Shown: one piece after another, positions 47,061-63,795 of the stretch
How positions within the stretch are numbered: position 1 is the stretch's first letter
Layout: each line of letters begins with the position of its first letter
Assembly: GCF_910592395.1 (NCBI RefSeq)
Contig: NC_088317.1
Location: forward strand, 9,674,001-9,738,000
From: Lineus longissimus
Taxonomy: Eukaryota; Nemertea; Pilidiophora; Heteronemertea; Lineidae
DNA: 64,000 nucleotides
Reading direction: 5' to 3'
The notes under the pieces: generated by a model
Databases searched by the model: none
Told to the model about the DNA's origin: nothing
The model's input: the letters and a program-made list of their open reading frames with translations, nothing else
Translations under genes and position numbers: made by a program

Positions 47061-47948
47061 ATGGAAGGACAGATATTTAACGTTAACCATTATGGTACTG
47101 TCAATGTTAATCAGTATCCTGTTAATCAGTATCCTGTTAATCAGTATCCTGTTAATCAGTATCCTGTTTATCAGTATCAACCAGTAGTTTCAGGGCCTAC
47201 ATTTAAATGTGTTAAGTGCGATGTAACAAAACTTGAAAGTGAATTTGGAAAGAACAGGCGTAATAAACTACTTGATTACTGTAAAGAATGTGGTTCAAGT
47301 AAAACCAAGAAATGTGGTAAATGTGGAGAAGTTAAATTACTAAGTGATGGTGAATTTGGTAAAGACGGAAATAGAGGTAATTGCAGATCATGTTTTAATT
47401 CATATTACAAAAAGGATTACCTTGACCAAAATGGTAATAGAGACAGACACAAAATTAGAGTTGGTCTAAACCGCATTTCTAAGGGAGAGTGTAATCGAGC
47501 TCTGCTCTCAGGACGAAGTCTGACTAGGACAAGGTCCAGAGAGCAAAGCTCGACCGGTAATTCATCATTCAATCTAGGATGTACAGACAATTTCTTCTCA
47601 CAGTGGTTAGAGTACCAGAGGAGTCTATCTCCAATAGGACAAAGTCCCGAGAACAGAGTTCGAATAGTAGAAGAAGAGTTGGATCATGTCTTACCAATCA
47701 AGGAATTCAAAGATAAACCTGAACTGTGCTTTGCTTGGTTTAACATTAGACCAATGTCTAAAACACAAAACAGACAGAAGAGTGCTAAAGTAGACTACAC
47801 ACTATTTAAGGATCAATTGGATAGGTCAATGGATTTCATGGTAAAAATGAGAAGTGAAAACTGGTTTGTCTTTCGAGACCAGGATGTAATACCAGATTGG
47901 AAAATAGTGATATCCATTTCGGGGATTATCTTCGTGATGAAAATATGA
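47061..47948 (+). CDS. Zinc-knuckle HNH endonuclease-like protein
   Basis: 295 aa. Residues 17-38 are NQYPV repeats. C50/C53, C74/C77, C85/C88 and C108/C111 form two probable zinc sites. Residues about 207-241 read ELDHVLPIKEF, then NIRPMSKTQNRQK, the DH...N...H/N pattern of HNH nucleases (D208, H209, N237). Two modules are inserted, at 143-166 and 190-202, between the zinc part and the HNH part. The final 16 residues are hydrophobic and differ in character. The alternative frame from 47897 encodes a better-looking tail, so a frameshift near the end is likely. Possible role: nicking or resolving element DNA. Not a standard Polinton core gene. Confidence 0.65.
   Translation: MEGQIFNVNHYGTVNVNQYPVNQYPVNQYPVNQYPVYQYQPVVSGPTFKCVKCDVTKLESEFGKNRRNKLLDYCKECGSSKTKKCGKCGEVKLLSDGEFGKDGNRGNCRSCFNSYYKKDYLDQNGNRDRHKIRVGLNRISKGECNRALLSGRSLTRTRSREQSSTGNSSFNLGCTDNFFSQWLEYQRSLSPIGQSPENRVRIVEEELDHVLPIKEFKDKPELCFAWFNIRPMSKTQNRQKSAKVDYTLFKDQLDRSMDFMVKMRSENWFVFRDQDVIPDWKIVISISGIIFVMKI
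47495..47554. repeat. Mini-hairpin modules, two in inverted order
   Basis: TCGAGCTCTGCTCTCAGGAC-GAAGTC followed by TAGGACAAGGTCCAGAGAGC-AAAGCTCGA. Encodes ALLSGRSLTRTRSREQSST in the HNH protein. Another, more degraded copy (AGGACAAAGTCCCGAGAACA) is at 47636-47665. Confidence 0.9.
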
Positions 47949-48091
47949 TTCTGCTTGATAGATTATCGAATTTAAATAATAACATGAGAATGAACCAGAA
48001 CATTAACATATGTAGTCAGACAGAAATCATAAACGAGATGATTAAGTTGAATAATAGACTTGAAAGAAATTTACTCTTTGCAGTGAATTGA
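47897..48091 (+). CDS. 64-codon open frame, probable frameshifted tail of the HNH gene
   Basis: No ATG at its beginning (first codon TTG), and it overlaps the HNH gene end by 52 bp in another frame. The peptide is a plausible amphipathic helix (LLDRLSNLNNNMRMNQN, then IINEMIKLNNRLERN). It fits either a separate small protein from a downstream ATG or the original C-terminus of the HNH protein before a one-base change. Confidence 0.4.
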   Translation: MENSDIHFGDYLRDENMILLDRLSNLNNNMRMNQNINICSQTEIINEMIKLNNRLERNLLFAVN

Positions 48092-48110
48092 TTTTATTTT
48101 ACTTAATTAA

Positions 48111-48398
48111 ATGAATAGAACTTGGGGTTACACAAAACGACCACGTAATTGGAAAGAAAGATTAGAACGATTTCATAGAGAATTAGAGGCAGAAGTAGAG
48201 TCAAAGTTGGAGCCTGGTCCCGAAAAACCTTTAAAACCTGCTGTGCCTGCTGGGTCAGAAAAACCTGTTGGGTCAGAAAAACCTGTTGGGTCAGAAAAAC
48301 CTTTAAAATTTAATGTACAACAAAAACCTGTAGTGTCTGCAGGATCAACACTAAACACTAGAAATGACAGAACAACTGATTCTAGTTATTCCCACTAA
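48111..48398 (+). CDS. 95-aa basic/proline-rich protein with GSEKPV repeats
   Basis: Starts in TTAATTAAATG. The N-terminus is strongly basic (TKRPRNWKERLERFHREL). The middle has three GSEKP repeats from an 18-bp tandem repeat at about 48253-48303. Family unknown; the basic head could bind DNA. It may be a core-like protein. Confidence 0.55.
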   Translation: MNRTWGYTKRPRNWKERLERFHRELEAEVESKLEPGPEKPLKPAVPAGSEKPVGSEKPVGSEKPLKFNVQQKPVVSAGSTLNTRNDRTTDSSYSH

Positions 48399-48402
48399 TT
48401 AA

Positions 48403-49062
48403 ATGGATGGAGACAATAAGGTTTATCCAGATTTAAGTAATTTAAACTCTGAAAGTCATTTGAACTATGAAAGGTCTGAAAAGCATACAGAAAGTAACCC
48501 TCAGGCTTTCAGACTACAACAAATATGTGAGGTTAAGAGTTTCTTAGAAAGCGAGATTGAATTTAGAAGAAAGATATTTTCAAAGTACAAAAAAGCATTT
48601 AGCGTAATTACTGGCATTAGCCACTTCCTTAATTTAACTAGCGTAGCAGCCGGATCTGTTGGTGTTTTCGCTCTAGCTGGTGTCATCACGGCACCGATAG
48701 GCTTAGCTTTGGGTGGCGTAACAATAGGTAGTGCCATTATTTCATCAGCCTTAGGCTGGGAGAAAAAGAATATTCTAAGGAAAATTGAAAAGCATGAGAA
48801 TATCAGAATGTTGGCAATTTCAAAACTGAACACAATCAATGATTTGGTTAGTAAAGCCTTAACCGATTCTCACATATCTACAGATGAGTTTACTTTGATT
48901 CTCAAGGAGAAGGAGAAATACATTTCGATGAAAAATGCCATTAGGAAAAAACAAAGGGAGGCAAGTTCAGCTGTTGATGTAGAGTCTTTAAAGAAGACTT
49001 TTTTAGAAGAAGGAAAAAAACTAGCACAGACAGAGATGCTAGAAAAACTAAAAGTTCAGTAA
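48403..49062 (+). CDS. 219-aa membrane protein, glycine-rich hairpin plus helical tail
   Basis: Starts in CTAATTAAATG directly after the previous gene (4-bp gap). Polar N-terminus to about residue 62, then a long Gly/Ala-rich hydrophobic hairpin (about 70-120: SVAAGSVGVFALAGVITAP and GLALGGVTIGSAIISSAL), then a charged helical C-terminus. This resembles a membrane-inserting or pore-forming design. Family not recognised; a virion membrane or entry role is a guess only. Confidence 0.6.
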   Translation: MDGDNKVYPDLSNLNSESHLNYERSEKHTESNPQAFRLQQICEVKSFLESEIEFRRKIFSKYKKAFSVITGISHFLNLTSVAAGSVGVFALAGVITAPIGLALGGVTIGSAIISSALGWEKKNILRKIEKHENIRMLAISKLNTINDLVSKALTDSHISTDEFTLILKEKEKYISMKNAIRKKQREASSAVDVESLKKTFLEEGKKLAQTEMLEKLKVQ

Positions 49063-49283
49063 ATCAAACAGGACCCGGACTACGTCCTAATCCTAATGTG
49101 GTGTATCACTATCACTATTATCATGACTTCGGTGTTAGGGATGAATTTCACCAAGTAACACTACCATCAGCACCACCCTATTCATTAGTTTAATCGAACT
49201 TTGTTATCTGGACGTAGTCCTAATCGAGCTATGCTCTCAAGACGAAGTCGGACTAGGACAAAGTCCAGAGAGCAAAGCTCGAC
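49063..49283. repeat. Intergenic mini-hairpin module cluster
   Basis: Spacer between the convergent 219-aa gene and PolB. GGACTACGTCC at about 49085; then 49194-49283 holds TCGAACTTTGTTATCTGGAC, GTAGTCC, TCGAGCTATGCTCTCAAGAC, GAAGTC, and an inverted AGGACAAAGTCCAGAGAGCA unit. Might serve as 3'-end or terminator structure for both genes, which is speculative. Confidence 0.8.
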
Positions 49284-52028
49284 TCAAGCGAAGTTTGAAT
49301 CGCTGTAATCTATGTAGCCTTCATAATACATTCCAAATGGTAAGGTGCTTATTCCATCTTCAAGTATGAACCTCTTGTCATCAAAAGGACTGAGGCTTTT
49401 TTTGTCAACTTCTTCCAAATAGATTTGGTGTTTATCTGATCTTAAGTGTCTCATCTTGTGGTAAAATGACCTACTCTTTTCAAGACAATCAACATAGTCA
49501 TCAAATGAGATATTTCGCCTTACTACATTCTTGGCAATACCCTTCAATTTCTTAGAATCGTAATCTTTTGTCGAACTTTGTTCTCGGGACTTTGTCCTAG
49601 TCGATCCTTGCTCTCCAGACATAGTCTTGGTCCTGTAAGCGTACATCTTACTTCTCAGGGCAATGAATTCAGTCATCTCTACTCCTCCTAGCTCATCCTT
49701 AAAGTAGCCTGGTACCTTCTTCTTACTGGTGTCATAGAGTGTATGATCTTTTGGATAATTACTAAAGTCAAAATAGTGTCTCAACTCATTTAAGTCTTTA
49801 GTCAGACTTCGTCTTGAGAGCATAGCTCGAGTTAAGTCATCAGTATTAATGTTAAGTACAAAGGAATCTGTATCTAGATACAGCAGTTCAATATTTTTCT
49901 CACCAAAGTACGGTTGAAGAACTTCATAATAGAATTCATACATTAATAATTTAGACAATTCAAGTACTGAAGCTCCTATGTAGATTGGTTTGTTGAATTT
50001 CATTGATGTTTTCCTCATGCTAATAGCAGCATTATGTTCGTCAAATACGCATATCGATGAAAACCTGGGATTGGCCATTACATTCCTGGCTCTCTCCCCG
50101 TCCGATACAAATTCAATTTCAACCCTGTTCCTTACATTCTCACAAGTTTTTCCATAGAACGCATTATTCATTAATTTAAAGTAATCTTTCTCAAAATCAG
50201 TCTTAGAATCCATACGTCTTTTAGTGTTAAAATCAATGTATGGTGCTAACCACTTTGATTGTTTAAAGCTTATCACTGAATGAACCCTCTTAAGTACCAT
50301 TCCGTGCTTGAGGTAAAATTGTAGCATTCTGTAATGCACTATGTAATTAGTTTTATCCTTTTGTGTTAGTATTAGTTTCTCTACATTTGATCTTTTATCA
50401 TCGCCCAGTAACTCTCTCTGGTAAGGACTTAATTCATCATCTTCAATAAAGAGAGATTCGGGACAGAATGGAAAGTTCCTTGACTTAAATTTAATATTTC
50501 CTGGATACTCCAAATCAACCTCTAAGAAGTAGCCTACTTCACTATCACTTGGAATTGCCATAATCTGCTCTTTACTGATAACATTCATGTTAAGTCGAGC
50601 TTTGCTCTCTGGACTTTGTCCTAGTCGGACTTTGTCCTGAGAGCATAGCTCGAGTGGATCAATATCTATCATTTCAAAACTACCATAGGGTTGAGGTTCC
50701 ATCATGGACCAGCCGTAGAGATTATTTGCGTCTACGTAGAGTAGTTTGTGGTGTTCATCTGCCTTGACATGTCTTGTTCCCATAACACCCGAAATTCCAC
50801 CTCGTATTGCTTTCTCAAAAGTAAGTAAGATGTTGGTATCAGTCAGTAGTTCTAGGTTTATTCCTGTGTACTTCAAACCAGCTTGCCAGGTTAGGCCTGG
50901 TGCCGAGTAACAGTGACATGGATCTATCTGAAAGTAGTTCAAATTGACATCCCTGAATTTCTCAAATAAATCAGCTAAAAGGATCACATCAGTTTTGAGG
51001 TAGAGGTCAATGAACTCACCGTGATTCCTGATCTTGAAATGATCCCATATTACCTTAGCCTCATCATAGGCAGAATCAGGTGCCATTTCATTTTTCAATT
51101 CGTCAAAAAACATAGACTTTTCTAGGTAAGTAACATTGTAGCTTTCATGTGATGTGTAAAAAGAGTAAGGTACTGAACCCTTCTTCCTCAATAGCTTAAA
51201 GTCAGTGGTATTTGGGAACAGCTGTCTGGTAATTTTAAAATCATCATCCAACATTGATTTGGTTATGTTGTCTAAACTGGACTGCAGGAATCTGTACGAG
51301 TCCAAAAACCTGAAACAACCGAACTGAAATGAGATGTATTCCTCTGATGTTTTGGCAAGTATTTTCAGTTTCTTATACTTCGGTAGCTTATTCATTAATT
51401 CTTTAATAAATAAGTGAGAATCGTAATTACTGAGATTGTGAAAAAACACTGGAACAAACATAGCTTTCTTTTCATTCAAATTACACGAGTTGTGAGCAGC
51501 ACCTCGATATCTACCACAGTAGTGATCATGATCCTTGACCTTGTCATATCCCAAAGGTTGATTACAATAGTAACAATGTGTTTCTAATTGATATTTATGC
51601 CAGTCGGACTTCGTCCTGAGAGCAGAGCTCGAGTCTTCATCTGTCATTGTTAGAGGAAAGTTACAGTTCAATAAATTAGAGAATTGTTCTTCCATCCTGA
51701 TTAACCAATTACAGAACACATCTACAACATCAGCACCCCTGTGAGACACATACTGGCTACTGTAAAGGTGTGTGTAGTCTGAGTGAACATAAACACCAAC
51801 AGCTGATGCATTTTGTTTAAAAAGTTTCTTTGAACTCGGTTCTTTCATCATAGGTGGCTCTACTGATACTACTGGTATGTTGCCTTCGGCAGAAGAACAA
51901 GGTTCGCTTATCGCTTCGAAATCAGCATAGATAACAAACGGAACTCTATTTTTGAATGAGTGTTTTTCAAATTTAATTTGTGACCATTTACTGTTAGGTG
52001 GAGGCAAAGTAATCTTACAGTTCTCCAC
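49284..52028 (-). CDS. polB: DNA polymerase B, exonuclease and polymerase part
   Basis: 914-codon frame of a protein-primed-type family B polymerase. Exo I DFE (D36, E38), Exo II FHNLSNYDSH, and Exo III YLKTDV. A zinc/HNH-like insert is typical of Polinton PolB (C150/C153, then DHDHYCGRYRGAAHNSC 164-180). Motif A has D433 (DANNLYGW), motif B is NNAFYG 621-626, and motif C is DTD 719-721. A KMYAYRTK motif follows. The frame has no ATG at its start (GTG, overlapping the upstream frame by 14 bp), so it is the continuation of 52015-53217 after a frame change. Modules code for short loops at residues 131-140, about 460-490, about 733-744 and near the C-terminus. It replicates the element; all catalytic residues are kept. 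Confidence 0.93.
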   Translation of the reverse strand: MENCKITLPPPNSKWSQIKFEKHSFKNRVPFVIYADFEAISEPCSSAEGNIPVVSVEPPMMKEPSSKKLFKQNASAVGVYVHSDYTHLYSSQYVSHRGADVVDVFCNWLIRMEEQFSNLLNCNFPLTMTDEDSSSALRTKSDWHKYQLETHCYYCNQPLGYDKVKDHDHYCGRYRGAAHNSCNLNEKKAMFVPVFFHNLSNYDSHLFIKELMNKLPKYKKLKILAKTSEEYISFQFGCFRFLDSYRFLQSSLDNITKSMLDDDFKITRQLFPNTTDFKLLRKKGSVPYSFYTSHESYNVTYLEKSMFFDELKNEMAPDSAYDEAKVIWDHFKIRNHGEFIDLYLKTDVILLADLFEKFRDVNLNYFQIDPCHCYSAPGLTWQAGLKYTGINLELLTDTNILLTFEKAIRGGISGVMGTRHVKADEHHKLLYVDANNLYGWSMMEPQPYGSFEMIDIDPLELCSQDKVRLGQSPESKARLNMNVISKEQIMAIPSDSEVGYFLEVDLEYPGNIKFKSRNFPFCPESLFIEDDELSPYQRELLGDDKRSNVEKLILTQKDKTNYIVHYRMLQFYLKHGMVLKRVHSVISFKQSKWLAPYIDFNTKRRMDSKTDFEKDYFKLMNNAFYGKTCENVRNRVEIEFVSDGERARNVMANPRFSSICVFDEHNAAISMRKTSMKFNKPIYIGASVLELSKLLMYEFYYEVLQPYFGEKNIELLYLDTDSFVLNINTDDLTRAMLSRRSLTKDLNELRHYFDFSNYPKDHTLYDTSKKKVPGYFKDELGGVEMTEFIALRSKMYAYRTKTMSGEQGSTRTKSREQSSTKDYDSKKLKGIAKNVVRRNISFDDYVDCLEKSRSFYHKMRHLRSDKHQIYLEEVDKKSLSPFDDKRFILEDGISTLPFGMYYEGYIDYSDSNFA
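49570..49628. repeat. Mini-hairpin modules in polB (C-terminal loop)
   Basis: TCGAACTTTGTTCTCGGGAC-TTTGTCC next to a degraded TGCTCTCCAGACATAGTCTT. Encodes SGEQGSTRTKSREQSST. Confidence 0.8.
49802..49831. repeat. Mini-hairpin module in polB (palm/thumb loop)
   Basis: CAGACTTCGTCTTGAGAGCA then TAGCTCGAG. Encodes TRAMLSRRSL, about 12 residues after motif C. Confidence 0.85.
50594..50653. repeat. Two mini-hairpin modules in polB, inverted order
   Basis: TCGAGCTTTGCTCTCTGGAC, TTTGTCC, then TCGGACTTTGTCCTGAGAGC, ATAGCTCGAG. Encodes LELCSQDKVRLGQSPESKAR between motif A and the thumb. Confidence 0.9.
51604..51633. repeat. Mini-hairpin module in polB (exonuclease domain)
   Basis: TCGGACTTCGTCCTGAGAGC then AGAGCTCGAG. 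Encodes SSSALRTKSD at residues 131-140, just before the zinc/HNH-like insert. Confidence 0.9.
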
Positions 52029-53217
52029 ATTTCTTTTTATGTTTATCTAGTGTTGACTTCCTGTAAAAGTAATTCATGCATCTCCTGCAAAGATACACTC
52101 TATGAGCTAGTGTCCTGAAGAAAAGATTGATGTCTCTTATGTACATGAAATGGTCCTTGAAATAGAGCAGATCAATGACATCATCATCATCATAATTCTT
52201 GGACAGGTAGAGAGGTTCTAGTTTTGCCTCACAGGTGCTCTTAGCCGATTCGTTCTCTAACTTGAACACATTAATCTTGAGATTATTATCACTCTCTATC
52301 TTAGGGATATCCTTTTGAATACATACAGGAAATGATTTGATTTGTACTCCGTACTGAGAGCAGAGCTCGATTTTGATATCAGTAGTTTTCGAACTCTGTT
52401 CACGTGACGAAGTCATTTGTAGCATATCGGTAGTAATATTGAATGTACTCTCGAGCTCTGCTCTCAGGACAAAGTCCGTCTCTGGATTTTCTTTCAGATA
52501 TTTAGCGGCCAATAAAGACCAGAGAAAACATTTATTGTCATTTGATTCCACATTTATTACTGCTTTTGTTTTAAATGGTAATTTAGTGTAATGACCACCT
52601 TTACACCTCTTGTAAGAACAGATGGTCATGTTACAAGACTCTATTTTATTTAAAGTAAGTCCAGAACCTTGAAAGTACCTTTCCTCAATCTGTGTCTTAA
52701 TGTAGTTTAACTGGTTGGTTATGGCATAAATTGCCTGGTTCCTTGAAATTATGCTTTCCATTGGAGACTGTATGGGGTGTGTTACACTTTCACCCTGACG
52801 ATCAATGCTCTGCTCTTCGACCAAAGGTCGATCAAACTGAGCAAATACTGATATGCTAATTTTGTGATGGTAATCATTGAGTTGAAATAATACCTCCTCT
52901 AATTTATCTCTGTATTCATACACTTGTTTAGCTTCTCTGTCAATCTTCAAACTAATGGTGACTACAGGCTTGCCAAATTGTTTTACTATTTCTATTCCAC
53001 TCACTTTCTTTATGCCATCTAGCTCGTTTTCCTCAAATGCAAGTTTCTTATCCATAGTTTTAGGGATCAGTGATGGGGCTCGGGGTTGAGCAATAGGGAC
53101 ATAATCCGGATTTAATTTACTTAAGTGACCTTTGGTTCTCCTGTGAATAGCCATATTATTGTAGGATATGTACTTGTCACATGTAGTGCAAAGTATTTTC
53201 TGATTCTTATCAGTCAT
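52015..53217 (-). CDS. polB: DNA polymerase B, N-terminal part (frameshifted from the rest)
   Basis: About 400 aa from the ATG at 53217-53215 (the frame is open a little further upstream without ATG). The N-terminus has a C2H2-type finger (ILCTTCDKYISYNNMAIHRR). The C-terminus has a C-x2-C...H...C finger (YLCRRCMNYFYRKSTLDKHKKKC). It ends in TAA just as the polymerase frame opens one base over, which fits a one-base change or a +1 shift splitting one gene of about 1,300 codons. The slippery sequence is not a classical -1 heptamer. Modules near 52349-52416 and 52451-52480 code for EL(C/E) peptides. Start context AAATAGAATG; divergent from 53274 with a 56-bp gap. Confidence 0.8.
   Translation of the reverse strand: MTDKNQKILCTTCDKYISYNNMAIHRRTKGHLSKLNPDYVPIAQPRAPSLIPKTMDKKLAFEENELDGIKKVSGIEIVKQFGKPVVTISLKIDREAKQVYEYRDKLEEVLFQLNDYHHKISISVFAQFDRPLVEEQSIDRQGESVTHPIQSPMESIISRNQAIYAITNQLNYIKTQIEERYFQGSGLTLNKIESCNMTICSYKRCKGGHYTKLPFKTKAVINVESNDNKCFLWSLLAAKYLKENPETDFVLRAELESTFNITTDMLQMTSSREQSSKTTDIKIELCSQYGVQIKSFPVCIQKDIPKIESDNNLKINVFKLENESAKSTCEAKLEPLYLSKNYDDDDVIDLLYFKDHFMYIRDINLFFRTLAHRVYLCRRCMNYFYRKSTLDKHKKKCGEL
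52349..52480. repeat. Three mini-hairpin modules in the polB N-terminal part
   Basis: Degraded CTGAGAGCAGAGCTCGA (52349-52369), TCGAACTCTGTTCACGTGAC-GAAGTC (52388-52416) and complete TCGAGCTCTGCTCTCAGGAC-AAAGTCC (52451-52480, coding TDFVLRAELES). A possible relic (CTCTGCTCTTCGACCAAAGG) is at about 52808-52836. Confidence 0.85.
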
Positions 53218-53273
53218 TCTATTTATTAGATTAAAATTTATTAAATTCAATAAATCTCTTGAATTAAATAGAA
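53218..53273. promoter_or_regulatory. 56-bp divergent intergenic region between polB and second penton-like gene
   Basis: Nearly pure A/T, with CTATTTATTAG at one side and AATTAAATAG at the other, each ending in the AAATAGA-ATG start context. It must hold both promoters. Confidence 0.55.
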
Positions 53274-54266
53274 ATGGACTTCATAATCAATGAACAAGAA
53301 TGTAATGAAGCCAAATTTGAGTACTACTTAACAGACCAATTAGACATAAAATCCATTACTTTGAAATCGATAACCTTTTACAATTCATGGTGGACAGGTG
53401 ATAACCTGCCAGCGAGTGCCCAAGTATTCATGTTTCTTTACGAAGAGTTTAAACTTAATAATCAACTGGATGCAACCATAATAGAACAGTGCATTGAAGT
53501 CCTTAACCATACACCCGATGCGACGCCAGATGAATTTTGTAAGAATTTTTTAGATAAACCCTCTATTAGAAGAATAATAAAAAACAGACAATCTACATTT
53601 CCATACTCTCGACATTTTAGTTTAAGTGAGTTTTGTAAGGTATGGCAAAAATACATAAAAGAAATTGGAATTAACCATGTGAAAATTTACTGTGATAACA
53701 ATAATTACATAACCCTTGAACTTACAAAGGATAAATACTTTTACATTAATATCATAAACTATGCTATTGTAAATAATACACCAGCTGGCAAAACATTCTC
53801 CTCAAACTTATTCGGTGTATGGAATGAGTGGTTTGGCTTTAAGCAAACTAAATTCACCAAGAAAGGAAAATACTACTCCACAAGACCACTCAACTTTTAC
53901 AGGAAATATCTATTCCTGCAAGCTAATTTGGTTGACAAGGCTAAGACCCTCTACAACAATAAACCATCTAACATTTTCTGCATCATACCTGTAAAAGATG
54001 GTGACCAAATAAAAATGCAGCGATACGAACCGAATTGTAAGAAAACGATAAATAAGTGTACTAATCACATAAAATTCGAAATCACTGATGAGAATGGTAA
54101 GCTAGTTAATTTCAGAGGAACAGAGGTTTCTTTAGAGTTAAGAATAGAGTTAAACTCTCGGGACGAAGACCGTCTAGGACAAAGTCCAGAGAACAAAGTT
54201 CGACTCGAGCTATGCTCTCAAGACGAAGTCGGACCACCTGATGAGATCATTCCATTAAAGGAATAG
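53274..54266 (+). CDS. 330-aa second penton-like / minor capsid candidate
   Basis: Start in AAATAGAAATG. The N-terminal strand pattern (LDIKSITLKSITFYNSWW) and C-terminal HIKFEITDENGKLVNFRG-TEVSLEL mirror the 255/258-aa penton-like protein, with a longer middle domain (helical, about residues 70-150). This suggests a paralogue or a fibre/vertex partner. The last ~45 residues are made of modules (54155-54233) coding NSRDEDRLGQSPENKVRL and LCSQDEVG. It overlaps the next gene's end by 20 bp. Function inferred by pattern only. Confidence 0.5.
   Translation: MDFIINEQECNEAKFEYYLTDQLDIKSITLKSITFYNSWWTGDNLPASAQVFMFLYEEFKLNNQLDATIIEQCIEVLNHTPDATPDEFCKNFLDKPSIRRIIKNRQSTFPYSRHFSLSEFCKVWQKYIKEIGINHVKIYCDNNNYITLELTKDKYFYINIINYAIVNNTPAGKTFSSNLFGVWNEWFGFKQTKFTKKGKYYSTRPLNFYRKYLFLQANLVDKAKTLYNNKPSNIFCIIPVKDGDQIKMQRYEPNCKKTINKCTNHIKFEITDENGKLVNFRGTEVSLELRIELNSRDEDRLGQSPENKVRLELCSQDEVGPPDEIIPLKE
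54155..54233. repeat. Mini-hairpin modules, three in a row (gene end)
   Basis: CGGGACGAAGACCG, AGGACAAAGTCCAGAGAACA-AAGTTCGA, TCGAGCTATGCTCTCAAGAC-GAAGTC. Codes for the 330-aa protein C-terminus. Confidence 0.85.
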
Positions 54267-54813
54267 TACATTTCTTCTCTTTAACTACAGGTTTAACAAG
54301 AGGGTTAATTGATCCCTTCATGACTGCTTCATTCGGACTTTGTCCTGAGAGCATAGCTCGATTAGGACTACGTCCAGAGAGCATAGCTCGATTCAAGCCT
54401 GATCGCTGCTCTTTACTTACTTTTTTAGGAAGTTTCTTAAACATAATGAATGCTGCTAAAATAACGGCACCTAAACCTAGTACATAGACATAAGTATTAC
54501 TACTAGATTCACGCAGTGATACATCAGTATTTTGAGATTGTGGTTCTTCTTCCTCTAATTCTTCTTCCTCCTTTTCCACAACTCTGTTGTTTGGTGAGGA
54601 GTCCTGTACTTTAAATGTCGTCTTATCCTTTTTTATCCTCTTAAATTCCTTAGATCTTCTACCCAGTTCTCTAGACCATGCTAATTGTTTCTCTGATCGA
54701 GGTTTCTTAGACACTGAAACTTTAGTCGAGCTTTGCTCTCTGGACCTTGTCCTAGTCGGACTTTGTCCTGAGAGCATATCTCGAGTAGTATCAGTTACAG
54801 TTTCAAGTTCCAT
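54247..54813 (-). CDS. 188-aa single-pass membrane protein with module-derived segments
   Basis: ATG in GATAAATG. One membrane segment (about residues 108-124: VYVLGLGAVILAAFIMF) lies between an acidic/Ser stretch and a basic stretch. The N-terminus (residues about 8-28) and the part after the membrane segment (about 138-165) are largely the products of module pairs (54726-54785 and 54333-54392). Family unknown; convergent overlap with the 330-aa gene. Confidence 0.6.
   Translation of the reverse strand: MELETVTDTTRDMLSGQSPTRTRSREQSSTKVSVSKKPRSEKQLAWSRELGRRSKEFKRIKKDKTTFKVQDSSPNNRVVEKEEEELEEEEPQSQNTDVSLRESSSNTYVYVLGLGAVILAAFIMFKKLPKKVSKEQRSGLNRAMLSGRSPNRAMLSGQSPNEAVMKGSINPLVKPVVKEKKCTIPLME
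54333..54392. repeat. Two mini-hairpin modules in direct order
   Basis: TCGGACTTTGTCCTGAGAGC-ATAGCTCGA then AGGACTACGTCCAGAGAGCA-TAGCTCGA. Codes LNRAMLSGRSPNRAMLSGQS. Confidence 0.9.
54726..54785. repeat. Two mini-hairpin modules, inverted order
   Basis: TCGAGCTTTGCTCTCTGGAC-CTTGTCC then TCGGACTTTGTCCTGAGAGC-ATATCTCGA. Same arrangement as at 50594. A decayed single copy (TTCGAACTATGTTCTCATAA) lies in the spacer at 54831-54852. Confidence 0.9.
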
Positions 54814-54862
54814 TTATCTTGGCCGAATTTAATTCGAACTATGTTCTCATAACCAGGTTAAT

Positions 54863-55765: not shown

Positions 55766-56905
55766 TTATTGCATCTTAACACTAGCTCGAGCTATGCTCT
55801 CAGGACGAAGTCTGGCTCGAGCTGTGCTCTCAGGACGAAGTCCGGCTCGAGCTATGCTCTCAGGACGAAGTCCGGCTGGTGTAAACTTAATACTACTGAT
55901 GCAGTTAATGTCTCGACCTGCACTAGCACCCAATAAAACGTCAAACTGCTTGTCAATATCCTGGTCATATTCCTTCTCAACCTTGTAATTCTGGAAGAAA
56001 ATACTTTGAGTGAAATCATACCATATTCTCTCCAAATCATTTACTCGCTCCTTGTTGGTTAAAAAAGGTGTAAATATTACATAATCAATTTTCAGCGTTT
56101 TAAAGGCTTGGTGTAAAAATACCTTGTAGTTAATGGTGACCTTCACACCACAGTAATGCAGAAATCTAAGGAAAGCATAGTACACTAGTCTGAGGTCAGT
56201 GATATTCTCATCGGTTAATTGCGGTTTACCAATTGCCCTGTTAATAAATTCAATGGCAAGAAACCAATCATATTCCCCACAGTGAAATTTAAAAAGCATG
56301 GCTTCACCATGTAACCCTTGGTTACATAACTTAGAGGGGAGAGTGTTAATACCCATTTTTAGGGCTGACTGAAGAGTACTTTCATATCTCTGCTTACTAA
56401 GACATTTTCTGTGACTTGAAAAGTAGCACTGTAAATACCCTTCCACAAAGTCCTTTAAATACTTAACTGCCGATTCGGACAGCCGACTCCATCCAAGTTT
56501 CCTTAGAATACTGTCAAAGTAACGTGTCTTGTTGTCAATATTGATCTCAAGAGTTTTAAAATCATCGTCGTAAGTAGTCGAATTGCAATTGGTGCAGAAT
56601 TGATACTTCACAGTTTTAGCTGCGTACCTTGCTGAATTCAAGTTTTTTTGATACTCAAAAAGGGTCCACCTTTTACAATTACGGCAGAATTGAGCATTAG
56701 TGTTGGTACTGACGTCATATTCTTTCATTCTTGGCAGGACTACTTTGCCTGTCTCAGTCAGACTTCGTCCTGAGAGCTCTGCTCGATCCATAACCCTAGG
56801 ACGAATGTATCCTTTAAGATTCTCATTGTTCCACTCGAGCTCTGCTCTCAGGACGAAGTCCGACTCACTAGAATAATAGTCTTTTAATGAGATGTATTTA
56901 TTCAT
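55766..56905 (-). CDS. 379-aa zinc-ribbon protein with module-repeat tail
   Basis: Residues about 74-108 hold C-x2-C (FCRNCKRW) and C-x2-C (FCTNCNSTT) about 29 residues apart, a zinc-ribbon spacing. A long helical region (about 125-330) follows without a recognised family; TFIIB-like proteins have such a layout, but no signature residues confirm it. Two modules lie near the N-terminus (56834-56864, coding SDFVLRAELE; 56759-56787, coding RAELSGRSL). Three tandem modules form the C-terminus (LRPESIARAG three times). Possible transcription factor. Confidence 0.6.
   Translation of the reverse strand: MNKYISLKDYYSSESDFVLRAELEWNNENLKGYIRPRVMDRAELSGRSLTETGKVVLPRMKEYDVSTNTNAQFCRNCKRWTLFEYQKNLNSARYAAKTVKYQFCTNCNSTTYDDDFKTLEINIDNKTRYFDSILRKLGWSRLSESAVKYLKDFVEGYLQCYFSSHRKCLSKQRYESTLQSALKMGINTLPSKLCNQGLHGEAMLFKFHCGEYDWFLAIEFINRAIGKPQLTDENITDLRLVYYAFLRFLHYCGVKVTINYKVFLHQAFKTLKIDYVIFTPFLTNKERVNDLERIWYDFTQSIFFQNYKVEKEYDQDIDKQFDVLLGASAGRDINCISSIKFTPAGLRPESIARAGLRPESTARARLRPESIARASVKMQ
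55786..55874. repeat. Three mini-hairpin modules in direct tandem
   Basis: CTCGAGCTATGCTCTCAGGA-CGAAGTCYGG three times at a 30-bp period (GTGCTC in the middle one). Codes the C-terminal LRPESIARA repeats. Best example of tandem growth. Confidence 0.95.
56759..56864. repeat. Two mini-hairpin modules near the zinc-ribbon gene start
   Basis: CAGACTTCGTCCTGAGAGCT-CTGCTCGA (56759-56787; second stem rearranged) and CTCGAGCTCTGCTCTCAGGA-CGAAGTCCG (56834-56864). Confidence 0.85.
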
Positions 56906-56953
56906 ATTTACATAATAATTATTTTTTTAAACATTGTTTTGATAGAAGGTCAC

Positions 56954-57649
56954 CTAAGACCTTTTATGTGATTTTACTGTTTTACGTGATTTTAAGGCTT
57001 TAACACCCCCAATTAAACCATAAATTATGGAGCTCACAATAGCAATAACTGCTATGATCAGATGTTCAGCTAGAAAGCCAACAACTGCACCAATTGTTTT
57101 CAGGAGAAATGATACGATAGAACCGATGATTCCCGGTAAAGCCGCAGCTGATTTCTTGGCTAGTTCTTTTAGCCATTCAGCAAACTTCTTGAGACCTTCT
57201 TTTACTTTATCTGGTATTGATGGTTTTGGTCCTGGTTCTGGTGTAGGTCCTGGAGTTGGGTCTGGTCCTGGAGATGGTCCTGGTCCTGGAGTTGGTTTTA
57301 CAGATTTAGTGGCACCACTTAAAGCACTACTGATACTAAGACCTAGAGTTGTAAATGTCATTACAACAGCTGTTATTATGGCGCTAATGGTTACACCATA
57401 TGTCTTAAAAAGTAACTTTATTCTGTCCTTCAGAGGAATAGTTGAATCTGGTTTCTTTAGAACATCAACAATTAAACGTTTAATTCTTCTAGTTTGTGAC
57501 TCCCTGTCATTGTCTAACCTCCATAACTTTGACTTTTCCTCATACAATTTGTCATTTAGTTCATCTATTTTCTTTTTCAACTCTCCTTTATCTTCAGAAC
57601 CTTCTTCTACAGACTCTAAATAGTCTCTTGTTAAATCATGAATTTTTAG
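56954..57649 (-). pseudogene. 3' part of an insertion-split gene (proline-rich, two membrane segments)
   Basis: Open frame of about 232 codons with no start of its own; upstream it runs into the inserted DNA. Coiled-coil-like N-part (GELKKKIDELNDKLYEEKSK), then a hydrophobic segment (ISAIITAVVMTFTTLGLSIS), a PGPGPSPGPDPTPGPTPEPG repeat, an amphipathic helix, two further hydrophobic stretches (IIGSIVSFLLKTIGAVVGFL and AVIAIVSSIIYGLIGG) and a basic end. It continues, in phase and in helical character, the frame that stops at 61474. Looks like a membrane-anchored structural protein of about 540 aa. Family unnamed. Confidence 0.7.
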
Positions 57650-57779
57650 CTCAGCTGACAAAGTCAGCGGAGCTAGTCAAATAGCTATTCGATTGGTGTC
57701 CGTCCTTCCACCCATCCTGCCATCCTTCCATCCATCCATCCATCTGTAGGCAAAGTTGGGCATTTTGTAATCATACAAC

Positions 57780-59070
57780 CGAGGCACTTCAAATCTAGTC
57801 TTGCTTATAAACACCGCAGAAAATGTTGCTTTCTGAAAAAAATTTGGGCGATTCGTCTCAAATTCAGCTCCCCAGGGGGCAAAATGCGTAAATGAAAAAA
57901 CAATTTTTTGACGCTCTATTCCAGCAGATAAAAGCTCGAAATAAAGTTGAAAAGGTCTTCATGATACAGAAGTTTTGATATAAAATAGATTAGTGTGGAT
58001 TTATATCACCAGTTGGCGGTAGTGAGCAAAACTGTTGTTTGACCCCGGATGACCCCGCTTTAAATTTCCCGCCGGTTACCTGGAGTACTATCATCAAGAA
58101 AATGGCGGTGACCTTTTTATTTCTACCGGAGCGATGATTTTGTAAGTGACAAATTTTCTTTTTAAGCCTTTACGGAAACGTATTTTGGTACGAAACTTTA
58201 CACGTTTATAGAAAAGATCAACGAGAATGTGTTCAAATGCCCTCACAACGATGAGTTCAACAGAATTTGGTCAAAACAACCTTCGAATGGAGTCAACTTT
58301 CTTTGCGAAATTGAAGCGACGACTTCATTATTTATCGTAATTTATGCAGATCTGAGTCCAGCTGATGGGCGATGTTTTGATTTGTGTTCAAACTATTGGA
58401 AACTTCGGAAATTAGTTCTATTAGTTCTACTATTCTGTAGGAGTATATTTATTATAGCCATTGATGTTGACAGCTAAAAGTTTCTTGTCCAATCACGTGA
58501 CCTCTCCAACACTCGATAATGCACTCTTTTCGTCCACGTTTTAGGCCAATCTTCGGCCTGAACATGAAATCTAATAAGCGCAGTACTTAAATCAGATGTT
58601 TCTCTCGCCTTGAAAACATTCCTGGGTAAAATCCATTGAGATTAGTCGAGTTAATCCACTTTTTCCGTGCCTAAAATCTCTGCCGCTGAATTCTATAAAT
58701 AGAAACTATTAACATCGCGGCAGTGTGGTTCCAATTGTGCGCCCTCCCACTTCACACCATGTCAGGAACTTTTACGGAGAGAGAGGGCGTGCGGTAAGAA
58801 GAATGGCCAAAATGACGTCACGTTTTCCTGGCAATGCCTCTTGCCAGACCAGTCAAGCATTGGGAAAGCATCTTTAATTCAGACAACGTTAGAACTAGAG
58901 AAACGAATATGTTAATTTGCAAAATTAAAAGCAGATTTCACCACTAACCAGCCAAATCGGAATACGACGGCGCAAAATGTTCTCGCTTTCCTCCTGCTAA
59001 AAAACCTTGTTCCCGCACTCCTATTTTAATTTATCCCAAGGAATATGATATGATCTGTTTTCACTTTTTG
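57780..59070. other. Inserted DNA without recognised gene
   Basis: Short frames only. Likely genomic sequence carried within the insertion. Confidence 0.5.
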
Positions 59071-60716
59071 GCTCAGTCACCGTAGGGGAGTCTATGCAAT
59101 ACTGCAGTGTCCGTCGTCCGTCGTCGTCGTTGTCCGTCGTATCCTAGTTCAAAAACAGTGGCACGTTTTTTAACCGCTAGGCCTATGAACTTAGAACTTT
59201 GTACACATGACCCCCTAGGTCAGATGACCCGTGACACTAAATTTCTGTCCGATCTGATTCTCTACTTGGCCACCAGGGGGCCAAATGTGGATATCTAAAA
59301 AGTGTGATATCTCGCTTATTAGTGACTTGTTTTCGATAAAACTTTTGTGGTAGGTACTCATAGCAAGGATACATCATATATCTTACGGGTTTTTAATTTG
59401 ATCTACTTTTCAAGGTCGCAGAGGTCAAATGGCGTGAATTGGCCGTTTGAGTGTAACTATGGCACGTTTCTCAACCACCAAAGCTATGAGCTTGAAACTT
59501 GGTACATATAACCCCCTATATCAGATAACCTCTGGTGCTGAATTTCAGCCTGATCTGATTCTTGACTTTGCCACCAGGGGGCCAAAACAGAAAAAGTAAG
59601 AAGTGCAATAGCCTGCTTATTAGCAAATTGTTTTTGATGAAATTTTTATGGCAGGGACCCCTAGCAAGGTTACCTCAGATGTTGCACGATTTTTCGGATT
59701 TGACGTACTTTTTAAGGTCGCAGAGGTCAAATGGCGTAAATTTGCCGTTTGAGTGTAACTATGGCACGTTTCTCAACCGCAACAGTTATGAACTTGAAAC
59801 TTTGAACAAATGACCCCCTAGGTCAGTTGACCTTTTACACTGAATTTTGGTTCGGTCTGATTATTGACTTTGCCACCAGGGGGCCCAAACTCAAAACTCA
59901 AAAAGTGTGATTTCTCGCTTATTACTGATTTGTTTTTGATAAAAGTTTCATGGTAGGTACTCCTAGCAAGGATACATCACATATCTTACGGGTTTTTGAT
60001 TTGACCCACCGTTCAAGTTCACAGAGGTCAAAGTTGAAAACTTTACCGTTCTTGGTACGTTTTGTCGTTGTTCAATGTAAAGAGTTTTAATTTTGTGTAA
60101 TGATGCATCTAAGAAGCCACTATTTGTATGCCAAGTTTCAGCCAGATCGGAATTCAAGTATGGCCGAAATTGCATGTTTTGTGGGTTTTTCCTCGTATTG
60201 TGGCAATCCAAAGGTCGTGAGTTCAAACCCCGGTCAAGGACAGCCAAAAATATTTTTATTTTTCATCTTTTCCTTTTTTCTTTTCTGAGTTCTATTTTAC
60301 ATTTTCTTCATTTTTTGATTTATTTGGTGCCATAGATTTAATTAGGCGGCCATCTTGGAAATCGTTTTTGCCGATTGCTGTAGTGTAACGAGTGATGGAA
60401 TTGTTATGGTCGGGTGGATGTGTCTACATCACATATCACCCTGGTTTGTTATTTGACCTACATGTCAGGGTTACTGAGGTCAAAGTTAAAAATATATTCA
60501 CCATTGTCATGGAGTGGCACATTTCTTCACTATCATTTTCACCTAGACTCTACAAGCTTGGAACCACAAGTCTCGGATTCACCACTTGGCCAGGGCCGGC
60601 TCTTAACTGGTCACAGATGCATGTATAAATTATGAGAGGCCTACATACTGTAGCACTTTCTGTAACTGTCTACTAAAAATACTTACGGTGAGCACAATGG
60701 CCCCTGGCCGTTTCAT
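59071..60716 (+). mobile_element. Dispersed 1.6-kb repeat, complete copy
   Basis: Starts GCTCAGTCACCGTAGGGGAG and ends CTTACGGTGAGCACAATGGC-CCCTGGCCGTTTCATTT; GCTCA(gt)CACCGTA at the ends is a short inverted repeat. After a GTCCGTCGTC microsatellite come three tandem sub-repeats of about 300 bp (GTGGCACGTTTCTYAACC, GGCCACCAGGGGGCCAAA, AAGGATACATCA, AAGGTCGCAGAGGTCAAA). The last part (60060-60716) is not repeated internally; it includes a B-box-like GAGTTCAAACCCCGG at about 60217. No protein coding. Confidence 0.85.
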
Positions 60717-60773
60717 TTGTAATTAAATGGTATTCATATAATGAGATCAATAGTAGTGTCCGTGTCAGATCCC

Positions 60774-60811
60774 ATCATGGAGGTATAAATAATTATTTAT
60801 ACCTCCATGAT
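60774..60811. repeat. Perfect 38-bp palindrome
   Basis: ATCATGGAGGTATAAATAA followed by its exact complement with no loop. Confidence 0.9.
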
Positions 60812-61473
60812 CCCATCGTTCAACTAGTCTTCTCTCCCCAGGTGCCTCACACGGACCTTCACGTCCCCATACTCAAGACCAACTCTTACAATATCGCCCT
60901 CAAAACAACCCTGGAGTCATGAATTCACAGGTGCTCCTGTGAAATCTCAGTTCTAGTTTATTTATCAAACTTTATCGAGGGTTACCCGGTTATCGAATCG
61001 AATGGATGTGTCGATCGTCGGGGCGGATCGATATGTGGTTAGGTTGTGCGTCCAAGGCGATTACTAATAGGTCATTCAGTTAGTTTGAGAAAGATCATGA
61101 TCATGAAGATGCGTGTTGTGTTATCATAACTGGAAAATAAGTTGAAGTTATTATTAGTACTACGATTCTTACATGAGTAAAAAGTAGAAGTTTTAAGCAA
61201 CACAATAATGTTACTCCCATTTTTTTCTGTAAAGCTATACTGAACTAGGGATATCTTCCGTTGCCTCCTGTAATATTTACATACCATGGCTGATTAGTTC
61301 AATCATATTTCATCCAGCTGGCAGCTCTGCATTGGAAATTTTAGTGGTATAACGTGTTCTCTTGACCTTCAAACAGTAGTATAAAGCCGATATTTACAAC
61401 TTTATACCCTCAGTCCTATGTTATTAGGTCATCCAGCTGAGCGCCAGGCCCTTGGGCCTCTTGTTTTTTCTAG

Positions 61474-62316
61474 TTCTTGTATTTGCATGTCCTTATCCCT
61501 CTTTACTGTAGCTAGATCATCACCAGCCTGTTTTAACCCTCTAAGTTCTCTCAAGGCATTTTCAGTAAAACCCAGTGATTTAAGTACATCATCATTAGAA
61601 TCTATCAGTTTATCTATTGGTTTGTTTGAACTGTTTACCTCATTAATTACTGCCTGTGTTTCAGGTGCAATTGATTGAATTTGACTTACTGGTGTTGGAC
61701 CTTCCATAGGTGCCATTCTAGGTACTTCCATAGGTGCTGGTTCATCAGGTGCAATCATACCTCTAATCATGTCAGCAAATCTAGTACCAAACTTAGTCTT
61801 TAATGTGCCTTCAGCATAGAAGCTTCCATTATCCTTAGTTAAAGGAATTAACTTCATCTTTTCTCCATTTTTATCAGGATATTCAAATAAATTTTTGTTT
61901 CCTAGTTTATCTTTTATCAAATCAAATTCAGAATTTCTAGGATTGTAATAAAGTTTGTTTCCATTGTAACTAATGTGTGGTGAAAGATTACTCAATTTTT
62001 TCTTGTCATAATTCCAGTTTGATCCTCCCAATGCTGTATCAAGTTTATCCTCTATTGTATCGTAACTTAACTCATTTTCCATCAATTCAGGGACAATACC
62101 TCTTACTCTTTCTGGTGTACTGAATGAAGTTTCAGTAGTAAAATTTCCACCTCCTGTGTTGTATGTTGTGCCGTCATCTTGAAAAGTTCTATTGGTTTCA
62201 ACTGTATTAGGATCTATCTCATCCATTTGGATATCTTCACCTCCTGTGTTGTATGTTGTGCCGTCATCTGGATAAGGGAGATTCTTTCTCATTTCTAGAA
62301 TTTGTTCAAAAGTTCC

Positions 62317-62348
<32 letters not shown>

Positions 62349-62394
62349 GTGAATCGTAATCATCCATTTCATAATTTTCACCTCCTTCAGCCAT
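61474..62394 (-). pseudogene. 5' part of the insertion-split gene
   Basis: About 307 codons from the ATG at 62394. A poly-Ser run comes from a GAT/TGA microsatellite (62318-62345). Then two copies of PDDGTTYNTGG-like sequence, a middle globular part (DLIKDKLGNKNLFEYPDKNG), and an MAP/EP-rich linker. A helical end (NALRELRGLKQAGDDLATVK) runs into the insertion, after which the frame adds a short unrelated tail. Together with 56954-57649 it would be one protein of about 540 aa: Ser-rich head, coiled coil, Pro-rich linker, membrane end. Family unnamed. Confidence 0.75.
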
Positions 62395-62424
62395 AATTAC
62401 TTATTTATCTAACCATAAAAACAA

Positions 62425-63795
62425 TCAATGTACCAACAACTGAGTAAAGCATGAATTTAATTGTTTCATGAGTATCATCCACCTTCTCAACTTTGGTGTC
62501 AAGTTTGTAGTAGTAGGAGTATTCTTTGAGGTTTCAGTTGTTTTTGGTGAATCAACATTACTCTTTGGTTTATGACTGGTCTCGAGCTTTGCTCTCAGGA
62601 CGAAGTCCGTCTTGACAGTACCAACACTACTCTTAACTCTTATTTTCTTAGAACTATTTCCTTCCATCAGTGGTGGTGGTAAGGTCTTTTTGTGGTTAAT
62701 GTCATTCTTACCGGGTTTAGCATTTTTTGGTGCTATTAAAATGTTATTATTGTACTTATCCAGCTTACCAATAACGAGTACCATATTTGATCCTATGACA
62801 TACAATCCTGGTGCTATTACATAATCTAGTCTTGTATGAGTGTCACTCACTGCTTTTTGATATCTTTGAATTGAAGTGGGAATATCAGGATGTTGATTAA
62901 TCGAATCCTTTAATAGTTTGTTAAATTCCTTCTGTGCATCCAATTCTGTACCCGGTACTCCAATTATTGGTGTTCTGGTCAACGCCTGAGCACCCAGAAT
63001 ACAGTAAACATATGTTCTTATTGTATCATTCAACCTCTCTATTCCCGGATTAGAGAAACCATTTGATTTAAATATCATGAATTGTTGATAGGTTTGACAT
63101 TCATTTTGTGTAATTACATCAAATACATTCTTGTGTCTCCTGACATGATCCTTGATGAAAATATCTGGATATTTGAAATTAGCCATTCCAGCATCCCAGT
63201 CTTTACTGAACATCGGTGGCATTCTATTTTCATGAACTTGCATGAGGAAGAAATTGATTTTAGAATCATTGATGTAATATCCGGGATCAGTTATGTTCGG
63301 GTTGTAATCAGGTACACTCCATGACCTCCAACCACCGTTATTTTCAAACACCGAGAAATCGTACTCGTCTTTTAAACCAAATTCACTCAATAACCCTCCT
63401 AGTTTCCTACGGTTAATGTTATTGTTTGTCTCATTAAAATCACTTTCACCTGGAATTGGTATCTCTAGATTCTTCATGATCTTCAATATTTGATAGTAAA
63501 CATGAAACCTGTAAATTGACCTTATCAATGGGTCACTGTGATTCAAGTGATCGTCTATTGAAATACCACAACCTGTTGTAGCAAACCAAACAGCCATGTT
63601 AAATTGGTTCTGGTAAAACGATAATGGATTCTTTTCCAGTAGCAGACAGTCTTTCTTATTTTTCAGGCTCAAAAACCCAGGTGTTATCTTAGTTTCTTGT
63701 AGGCGGAAGAAGTTATTAGTATTAACAGTTACTTCTAAATTAAAGAAGTCATAGGTGAATTGACTTTTATGTTGATTTGCTATTGGATAATACAT
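62425..63795 (-). CDS. 456-aa Polinton protein, unknown, possibly structural
   Basis: ATG in AAATTAAATG. No membrane segment or known motif. Globular, aromatic-rich N-terminal two thirds (LLLEKNPLSFYQNQFNMAVW, SIYRFHVYYQILKIMKNL), then a Lys/Ser/Thr-rich, probably unfolded C-terminus. A complete module (62581-62610) codes TDFVLRAKLE in that tail, spelled GCAAAG where the common GCATAG would give a stop. The size and position would suit a virion or minor replication protein; nothing allows a firm call. Confidence 0.6.
   Translation of the reverse strand: MYYPIANQHKSQFTYDFFNLEVTVNTNNFFRLQETKITPGFLSLKNKKDCLLLEKNPLSFYQNQFNMAVWFATTGCGISIDDHLNHSDPLIRSIYRFHVYYQILKIMKNLEIPIPGESDFNETNNNINRRKLGGLLSEFGLKDEYDFSVFENNGGWRSWSVPDYNPNITDPGYYINDSKINFFLMQVHENRMPPMFSKDWDAGMANFKYPDIFIKDHVRRHKNVFDVITQNECQTYQQFMIFKSNGFSNPGIERLNDTIRTYVYCILGAQALTRTPIIGVPGTELDAQKEFNKLLKDSINQHPDIPTSIQRYQKAVSDTHTRLDYVIAPGLYVIGSNMVLVIGKLDKYNNNILIAPKNAKPGKNDINHKKTLPPPLMEGNSSKKIRVKSSVGTVKTDFVLRAKLETSHKPKSNVDSPKTTETSKNTPTTTNLTPKLRRWMILMKQLNSCFTQLLVH
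62581..62610. repeat. Double mini-hairpin module (complete)
   Basis: CTCGAGCTTTGCTCTCAGGA-CGAAGTCCG. Its presence beyond the 3.8-kb insertion shows that 61474-64000 belongs to the same element family. Confidence 0.9.

Follow-up and report, generated by a model that had tools for sequence, protein, structure and literature searches.

A 27-bp palindromic unit that probably moves as a micro-element within Polintons of Lineus longissimus

In a 64-kb stretch of the genome of the nemertean Lineus longissimus (NC_088317.1, positions 9,674,001 to 9,738,000; hereafter the window, with position 1 as its first letter), we identified a short palindromic unit dispersed through two Polintons. The unit is 27 bp long, with two abutting 11-bp palindromes (consensus C-GGAC-nnn-GTCC-TGA-GAGC-nnn-GCTC-G), and is bordered by a 3-bp direct repeat, often AGT, such that one insertion adds 30 bp. 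In agreement with the initial annotation of this DNA, which had suggested a Polinton-specific mobile micro-element, the unit is probably a non-autonomous mobile DNA micro-element of Polintons. Its mobility is well supported: Polinton paralogs that are 97.9-99.5% identical differ by the presence or absence of 30-bp insertions, with intact empty sites. None of the 167 copies placed in the genome was found away from Polintons. Besides this restriction in the placed sample, the directly observed features are the target repeat, which is single at empty sites, the use of either orientation, insertion of one unit next to another, the partial decay of copies and hybrid units.

Filled and empty sites among Polinton paralogs

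The capsid-like gene of these Polintons is present in at least 100 copies at 98-100% identity in the 391-Mb genome (100 scored of 691 candidates). In eight paralogous pieces of the family B DNA polymerase gene (polB; 98.8-99.3% identity), the main differences from the window are blocks of 30 and 60 bp, which correspond to one or two elements with one triplet each. The element at 49803 is present in the window only. Among the 28 paralogs fetched, 27 span this site (L075 does not reach it), and all 27 are empty, with a single uninterrupted AGT and no excision footprint. At 51605, three of the six covering paralogs are empty and carry a single AGT, and at 52343 the site is uninterrupted in all six. 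Furthermore, paralogs carry 30-bp units of their own that are not found in the window, at 49071, 49191, 49220 and 49281. At 49572/49602, 29 Polintons (the window and 28 paralogs) carry no unit (3), one unit (20, one of them hybrid) or two units (6).

The same step size is apparent in the length of the polB match, which falls on a 30-bp ladder (2445, 2475, 2505, 2535 and 2565) in 44 of the 46 full-length rows, the other two being off by 6 bp; seven of the original 53 rows lacked a match to 1-855 and were dropped. Units also erode and merge. Hybrid units formed by deletion were identified, including at 50596-50652. The penton site could be read in 24 of 30 paralogs; 23 of these have a half unit, and the copy at 2748 is the sole full one.

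Structure of the unit and its target site

When the window was scanned with the 27-mer (21 fixed letters), 47 matches scored at least 13. Of these, we accepted 34 as copies; the right Polinton contains 32 of them and the left one two (Table 1). The accepted set includes a half unit (44739), a degenerate homologous pair (45982 and 1496) and two decayed copies (52390 and 55623); the 13 matches that were dropped scored 13-14. In eight simulated windows, the mean number of matches was 12.4 at score 13, 1.25 at score 14 and 0.125 each at scores 15 and 16. The 36 kb between the Polintons, where the initial annotation saw no unit, contains six matches, all scoring 13-14, which is chance level. We found a copy at every one of the 22 coordinates listed in that annotation, some of them half or degenerate, and the single, inverted-paired and tandem arrangements in both orientations that it reported are all seen among the 34 copies.

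Identical triplets border 19 of the 32 copies considered (1496, a duplicate, and the half unit at 44739 were left out), against a mean of 4.9 and a maximum of 13 in 5,000 shuffles. For isolated copies, the triplets match in 8 of 13, compared to 2.8 expected, a value reached by two of the 5,000 shuffles. The flanking repeats in the window are AGT, ATT, AAT, AGA, AGC or ACT, and in the pooled loci fetched from the genome the triplets match at 11 of 22 isolated sites, all 11 beginning with A (AGT 7, ATT 2, AGA 2). Read from either end, the target is approximately ANT, mostly AGT. The unit is present as first described, and its boundaries, previously given as about 28-30 bp, can be refined to 27 bp with a 3-bp flanking direct repeat.

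Two principal sequence types were identified, CGGAC...TGA... and AGGAC...AGA.... The element occurs in both orientations and is also inserted beside its own kind: 11 neighbouring pairs are spaced at exactly 30 bp, five head to head, one tail to tail and five in the same direction. In an alignment of the copies, 95.5% of the cells in the arms are paired, and changes on both sides of a pair, such as GGAC/GTCC to AGAC/GTCT or GAGC/GCTC to GAAC/GTTC, occur in 11 cells versus 1.8 expected (none of 500 shuffles was that high), the structure tested being derived from the same sequences. Further pair types in the arms show no excess (5 versus 4.3 in shuffled alignments; 189 of 500). The conserved pairing fits a hairpin and equally fits a double-stranded palindrome bound by a dimer. 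The one head-to-head pair that was tested folds strongly (-21.7 kcal/mol, z -7.9). Hairpin stability of single units was rejected as an argument, given that their folding energies are at the level of shuffled DNA.

Insertion within protein-coding genes

In accord with the earlier claim that most copies lie within protein-coding genes, 29 of the 32 copies are wholly inside open reading frames (ORFs). This is in line with a coding fraction of 0.88, and thus the element shows no avoidance of genes. Copies are read in each of the six frames (in one frame, a single copy), and the six resulting peptides are unrelated, which argues that the unit is a DNA element and not a peptide. Because 27 + 3 is a multiple of three, an insertion keeps the frame, and selection need only remove stops. 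In counts made after the data had been seen, the TGA spacer is altered in all six copies that would read it in frame versus 7 of the 26 others (hypergeometric 0.0019), and the three copies that would read TAG from an ATA loop all have AGA or AAA instead.

In the C-terminal part of PolB, units or pairs at four places coincide with inserts of 10-24 residues that are not present in aligned relatives. This alignment comprises 19 of the 120 listed matches, 15 of which reach the site at 51605; a few of the relatives have shorter, unrelated letters at the insert places other than 51605. In the N-terminal part, three units lie within a stretch about 30 residues longer than in six relatives, in an alignment that does not place each unit exactly. 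When copies are compared with their shortest sisters, the C-terminal part of PolB tolerates as many as four 10-residue inserts (span 2445 to 2565). A search for the peptide strings of the element in 120 relatives produced one match, which we take as chance. The initial annotation had raised a conserved ancestral protein motif as the contrary outcome; related PolB proteins instead lack the inserts, and so do, at several sites, paralogs that are 98-99% identical. The use of six frames and the absence of the inserts in relatives rule out both the ancestral-protein and the peptide-motif readings.

Genome-wide distribution

The genome contains 1,920 exact copies of the pattern, and a control with the pattern reversed gave none. 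We placed 167 of these copies, 47 by their own flanks, 107 by distance and 13 by sampled cluster. Each of the 167 is located in Polinton DNA itself, no more than 20 kb from a Polinton gene, or in a cluster from which Polinton DNA was sampled; proximity to a Polinton gene is not equal to location inside the element, and many of the placed copies are inherited rather than separate insertions. The placed copies come from two lists of 100 and 73 that overlap by six. The first 100 copies in contig order are all on contig C1, at 8.63-14.22 Mb, in 13 tight clusters of 1-16 copies; since the list follows contig order, there is no exact copy in the first 8.63 Mb of C1. For 79 of these, a scored capsid gene lies no more than 20 kb away, and the zones so defined make up about 2% of that stretch (an approximate background, as a new random place was drawn per gene). 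The other 21 form six clusters, from which all eight sampled pieces contain Polinton DNA, 75-97% identical. The subtype with GCA in the first loop served as a genome-wide sample (n=73): 31 copies have a scored Polinton gene at a distance of up to 20 kb, 39 were fetched and all 39 have Polinton flanks, and three belong to sampled C1 clusters. Thus, as far as seen, the element is restricted to Polintons in the placed sample, and the equal density in other DNA that would speak against its specificity was not observed.

Exact-consensus scans of viral and prokaryote contigs gave no matches, and locus searches that used the capsid-like or the PolB protein as a single query revealed no relatives in viral contigs. 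A profile search identified two viral and five genome loci (L001-L007) of Polinton type, at 30-41% identity, and none of them contains the unit. Among the open-licence PMC papers listed by our searches, judged by titles and abstract openings, no report of such a unit in Polintons stood out.

Some of these relatives have repeats of their own. L002, from a viral contig, carries dispersed small palindromic repeats, GCCTTTAGGC-GTATAC... and GCAAAGC (positions 3964, 4048, 12481 and 12529; also 2068, 2087 and 4703), perhaps another element of such kind, and L001, also from a viral contig, contains tandem repeats with inverted arms and periods of about 41-42 bp and 58 bp (5603-5851, 14334-14583). L003-L007 and P0015 are Polinton-type polB loci in contigs binned or named as bacterial and are probably eukaryotic contamination.

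Proposed mechanism and alternative explanations

We propose that the unit would be copied or released during replication of Polinton DNA, either off the chromosome or next to it, and that a trans-acting nuclease or recombinase acting on Polinton DNA would make a symmetric 3-nt staggered cut at ANT. Joining of the unit and filling of the gaps would generate the 3-bp repeats; selection would then retain the copies without a stop in frame, and slippage between short repeats would prune copies. Given the restriction to Polintons, the factor responsible would be one that works on Polinton DNA alone. The candidate that we consider most likely is the endonuclease-VII-like HNH protein of the Polinton (Table 1) or the similar stretch in PolB. 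T4 endonuclease VII cuts branched DNA, and these two are therefore the preferred candidates.

Several observations weigh against a mobile micro-element of this type or blur its outline. Matching flanks are missing in 13 of the 32 copies. The base 3' of the element is A in 32 of 32 copies, with a matching left A in 26 of 32, a pattern that may also reflect a unit of 28 bp and a repeat of 2 bp. Three single-unit strands fold at -3.3 to -4.5 kcal/mol (z about -0.1 to -0.2), no better than shuffles; the arms may thus be double-stranded binding sites and not hairpins, and of the two mini-hairpins in the initial annotation, the conserved palindromic arms with their double changes stand, whereas the folding of single units does not. 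The sites at 51605 and 52343 are filled in L057 (91% identical) and L059 (94%), respectively, yet empty in nearer Polintons, which indicates that precise loss or recombination also happens and that absence is not always ancestral. At the exact place of 49803, L061 (94% identical) has a different element subtype (L061:389), which represents site reuse or conversion, and two base changes within 40 bp of 49803 (49764 and 49788) are private to the window among 28 Polintons; accordingly, gene conversion from an unsampled Polinton is possible there. Paralogs also differ by 6, 8, 22, 40, 50 and 70 bp, which are not 30-bp units.

The main rival is that the unit is a strict miniature inverted-repeat transposable element (MITE). 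In this case, it would be a deletion derivative mobilized by a DDE transposase of the host, its insertion would duplicate 3 bp of target, and its ends would be minimal terminal inverted repeats (CGRRC...). Extracts of work on Pandoravirus link a MITE family in that virus to a host Tc1/mariner transposon (PMC4495683). The unit is a short non-coding element with a 3-bp target-site duplication at a symmetric, ANT-like target and transposon-style empty sites. Its ends, CGGACTTTGTCC and CGAGCTATGCTC, both start with CG and match at 7 of 12 positions. A host transposase, however, should also strike host DNA, and the 167 placed copies include none away from Polintons; the 27 empty sites at 49803 are free of footprints; and 27 bp is very short, as we know of no transposon of that size with both ends brought together in cis. 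The tiny length and the confinement to Polintons speak against a host transposase, which we regard as unlikely.

Shuffling in place of present transposition appears improbable. Here, an old repeat would be redistributed among Polintons by gene conversion, unequal exchange and slippage, and the differences would represent sorted old variation or precise loss. Such exchange is consistent with the tandem arrays of variable number, the hybrid unit at 50596-50652, the sites shared by Polintons that are 91-94% identical but missing in nearer ones, and the two private changes beside 49803. Nevertheless, it fails to account for single units that carry target repeats at many unrelated sites, and it has to contend with the absence of 49803 from all 27 spanning near relatives and with the extra 30-bp units that the paralogs hold at sites of their own.

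A working Polinton signal kept at many places, such as a packaging, replication, recombination or transcription site, is more doubtful still, even though copies are numerous (1-16 exact copies per cluster on C1) and their paired arms are kept. Positions and numbers vary between paralogs, decayed and half copies are tolerated, and the related Polinton-type loci L001-L007 have no copies; the packaging or replication signal suggested in the initial annotation found no support, given these shifting positions and the use of all six frames. The notion of a protein-level repeat or peptide tag, to which the 29 copies in ORFs that stay open might lend some appeal, is refuted by the six peptides, one per frame, and by their absence from related proteins.

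Comparison with known palindromic elements

We compared the micro-element with known systems by description, using extracts of the cited papers. Double-hairpin elements (DHE) of fungal mitochondria consist of two adjacent small palindromes, are tens of bp long, dispersed and potentially mobile (PMC10085805, citing Paquin et al. 2000 on Allomyces). The unit described here is also a dispersed pair of adjacent palindromes, with paired arms, double changes and weak single-strand folds. Unlike it, DHE are mitochondrial and GC-rich and, in fission yeasts, mostly located in intergenic regions or rRNA genes, whereas the window and the placed copies are on chromosome-sized nuclear contigs, in or near Polintons, and mostly in protein genes. 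The repetitive hairpin-forming elements (RHE) of sponge mitochondria, small hairpin repeats with repeated invasions and few copies in genes (PMC2800124), differ in being mitochondrial and mainly intergenic.

Yeast mitochondrial GC clusters (GC42 and others) show a putative AG target duplication, merging and shuffling, and absence sites with a single target; intron endonucleases have been proposed, and the mechanism is described as open (PMC4478555). These are palindromic micro-elements with a short target duplication, hybrids and single-target empty sites, as in our case, but with a 42-bp unit and a 2-bp AG target in mitochondrial DNA, in contrast to the 27-bp unit and the 3-bp ANT-like target (AGT/ATT/AAT/AGA/AGC/ACT) in Polintons on chromosome-sized contigs. 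The element works like DHE, RHE and GC clusters but falls outside these groups in location, length, target or frame.

The initial annotation had likened the unit to Rickettsia palindromic elements, which are in-frame insertions of about 150 bp in many unrelated protein genes and are said to encode a conserved peptide (PMC10969869). The likeness holds for palindromic, in-frame insertion within protein genes but not for size or reading frame, the present element being 27 bp long, using six frames and residing in a eukaryote rather than in bacteria. Submariner MITEs of Pandoravirus salinus have a 243-bp consensus, inverted repeats of about 100 bp and a TA duplication, are of Tc1/mariner type, and lie within genes in 10 of 30 copies (PMC4495683). 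They resemble our case in that a non-autonomous element has multiplied inside a large DNA virus of eukaryotes, here inside a virus-like Polinton.

Carrier Polintons and other features of the window

The right Polinton contains the Polinton/Maverick gene set, namely, an RVE integrase with a chromodomain (rve 1.7e-11; Chromo 6.7e-8), a family B DNA polymerase (DNA_pol_B_2 1e-19), an FtsK/A32-type ATPase (Pox_A32 6.8e-15) and a weakly matching capsid protein (Capsid_N 0.002, below the cut-off). The endonuclease-VII-like ORF has no significant Pfam match. Positions 42031 and 5516 share the same Polinton end, which also occurs at one end of the paralog L008. Homology between L008 and the window stops at 63870; a right terminal repeat of the window Polinton was searched for beyond 63870 and not found. 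A block at about 57648-61463 in the right Polinton, with repeats common to host DNA, is absent in L008 and probably is a later insertion. In L008, the sequence of 61.46-63.87 kb directly adjoins 57.65 kb, and thus the ORFs of 61.46-63.87 kb belong to the same Polinton.

PolB is split in two ORFs in the window (49284-53217) but is one open frame of about 1258-1325 codons in most of the 53 scored paralogs. One polB paralog (L080) has a 70-bp tandem duplication opposite window position 49906 that is unrelated to the element. The integrase ORF starts later in the left Polinton (482-1366, 294 aa) than in the right one (45871-47025, 384 aa). Outside the Polintons, a host ORF (11699-12454) matches a predicted L. 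longissimus protein at 100% identity across 94% of the ORF. We also observed a 73-bp tandem array (40988-42135) that reaches and crosses the left end of the right Polinton; a Helitron-like ORF, named by eye, followed by repeats of about 300 bp that recur in the window, including the block that interrupts the Polinton (24158-28922, 6533-6832, 21315-22149 and 59153-60058); and a long interrupted inverted repeat (18712-20848, centre at about 19.8 kb) with arms of 143-389 bp that are 88-99% complementary.

Table 1. Polintons, candidate nuclease genes and copies of the palindromic unit in the 64-kb window
Feature	Position	Strand	Context
Polinton, right copy	42031..63870	+	left end AGAATATATG at 42031
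Second Polinton, inverted, cut by window start	1..5516	-	98-99% identical to 42031-47506
Endonuclease VII / HNH-like ORF	47061..47948	+	PHROG endonuclease VII, E 7.2e-12
Family B DNA polymerase ORF	49284..51851	-	endonuclease-VII-like stretch, 23.1 bits (Pfam cut-off 23.6)
Degenerate copy	1496..1522	-	left Polinton, homologous to 45982
Element	2748..2774	+	left Polinton, penton-like gene
Half unit, second arm only	44739..44765	-	
Degenerate copy	45982..46008	+	integrase gene
Element	47496..47522	-	first of head-to-head pair, endonuclease-VII-like ORF
Element, AGGAC subtype	47526..47552	+	second of pair with 47496
Element	47636..47662	+	flanks AAT/AAT
Element	49195..49221	-	array after polB, flanks ATT/ATT
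Element	49225..49251	-	array after polB; missing in 6 of 8 compared paralogs (L047, L049-L053)
Element	49255..49281	+	array after polB, flanks ACT/ACT
Element	49572..49598	-	polB
Decayed element	49602..49628	-	polB
Element	49803..49829	+	polB, flanks AGT/AGT
Element	50596..50622	-	polB, head-to-head with 50626; in some paralogs absent or merged into hybrid
Element	50626..50652	+	polB
Element	51605..51631	+	polB, flanks AGT/AGT
Element	52343..52369	+	polB N-part, flanks ATT/ATT
Decayed element	52390..52416	-	polB N-part; in L052 missing inside larger gap
Element	52452..52478	-	polB N-part, flanks AGA/AGA
Strongly decayed copy, probable	52799..52828	.	exact 30-bp indel versus paralog L053
Element	54146..54172	-	end of ORF 53274-54266
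Element	54176..54202	+	array with 54146
Element	54206..54232	-	array with 54146 and 54176
Element	54334..54360	+	tandem pair, flanks ATT/ATT
Element	54364..54390	+	tandem pair with 54334, flanks ATT/ATT
Element	54727..54753	-	head-to-head pair with 54757
Element	54757..54783	+	head-to-head pair with 54727, flanks AGT/AGT
Element	55406..55432	+	flanks AGT/AGT
Half-decayed element	55623..55649	-	
Three tandem elements, period 30	55788..55874	-	flanks all AGC
Element	56759..56785	+	ORF 55766-56905
Element	56836..56862	-	flanks AGT/AGT
Element	62583..62609	-	ORF 62425-63795, flanks AGA/AGA

Conclusions

The DHE and GC clusters treated in the cited extracts are organellar, and the enzyme is given there as not known (PMC10085805, PMC4478555). 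Here, an element of such kind is found in a virus-like transposon of the nucleus. The capsid gene of this transposon has at least 100 near-identical copies in one chromosome-scale genome, so that numerous occupied and unoccupied sites can be compared as in a natural experiment. The apparent confinement of the element to Polintons narrows the hunt for the enzyme to a few Polinton proteins and replication intermediates, and the 10-residue inserts in PolB provide an example of repeat-driven change in protein length. More tentatively, this could be a 27-bp element that has a virus-like transposon as its sole habitat, depends for its copying on machinery confined to sites of Polinton DNA replication, and rewrites Polinton proteins, including the replicative DNA polymerase, in steps of 10 residues, perhaps placing it among the smallest nuclear mobile elements.

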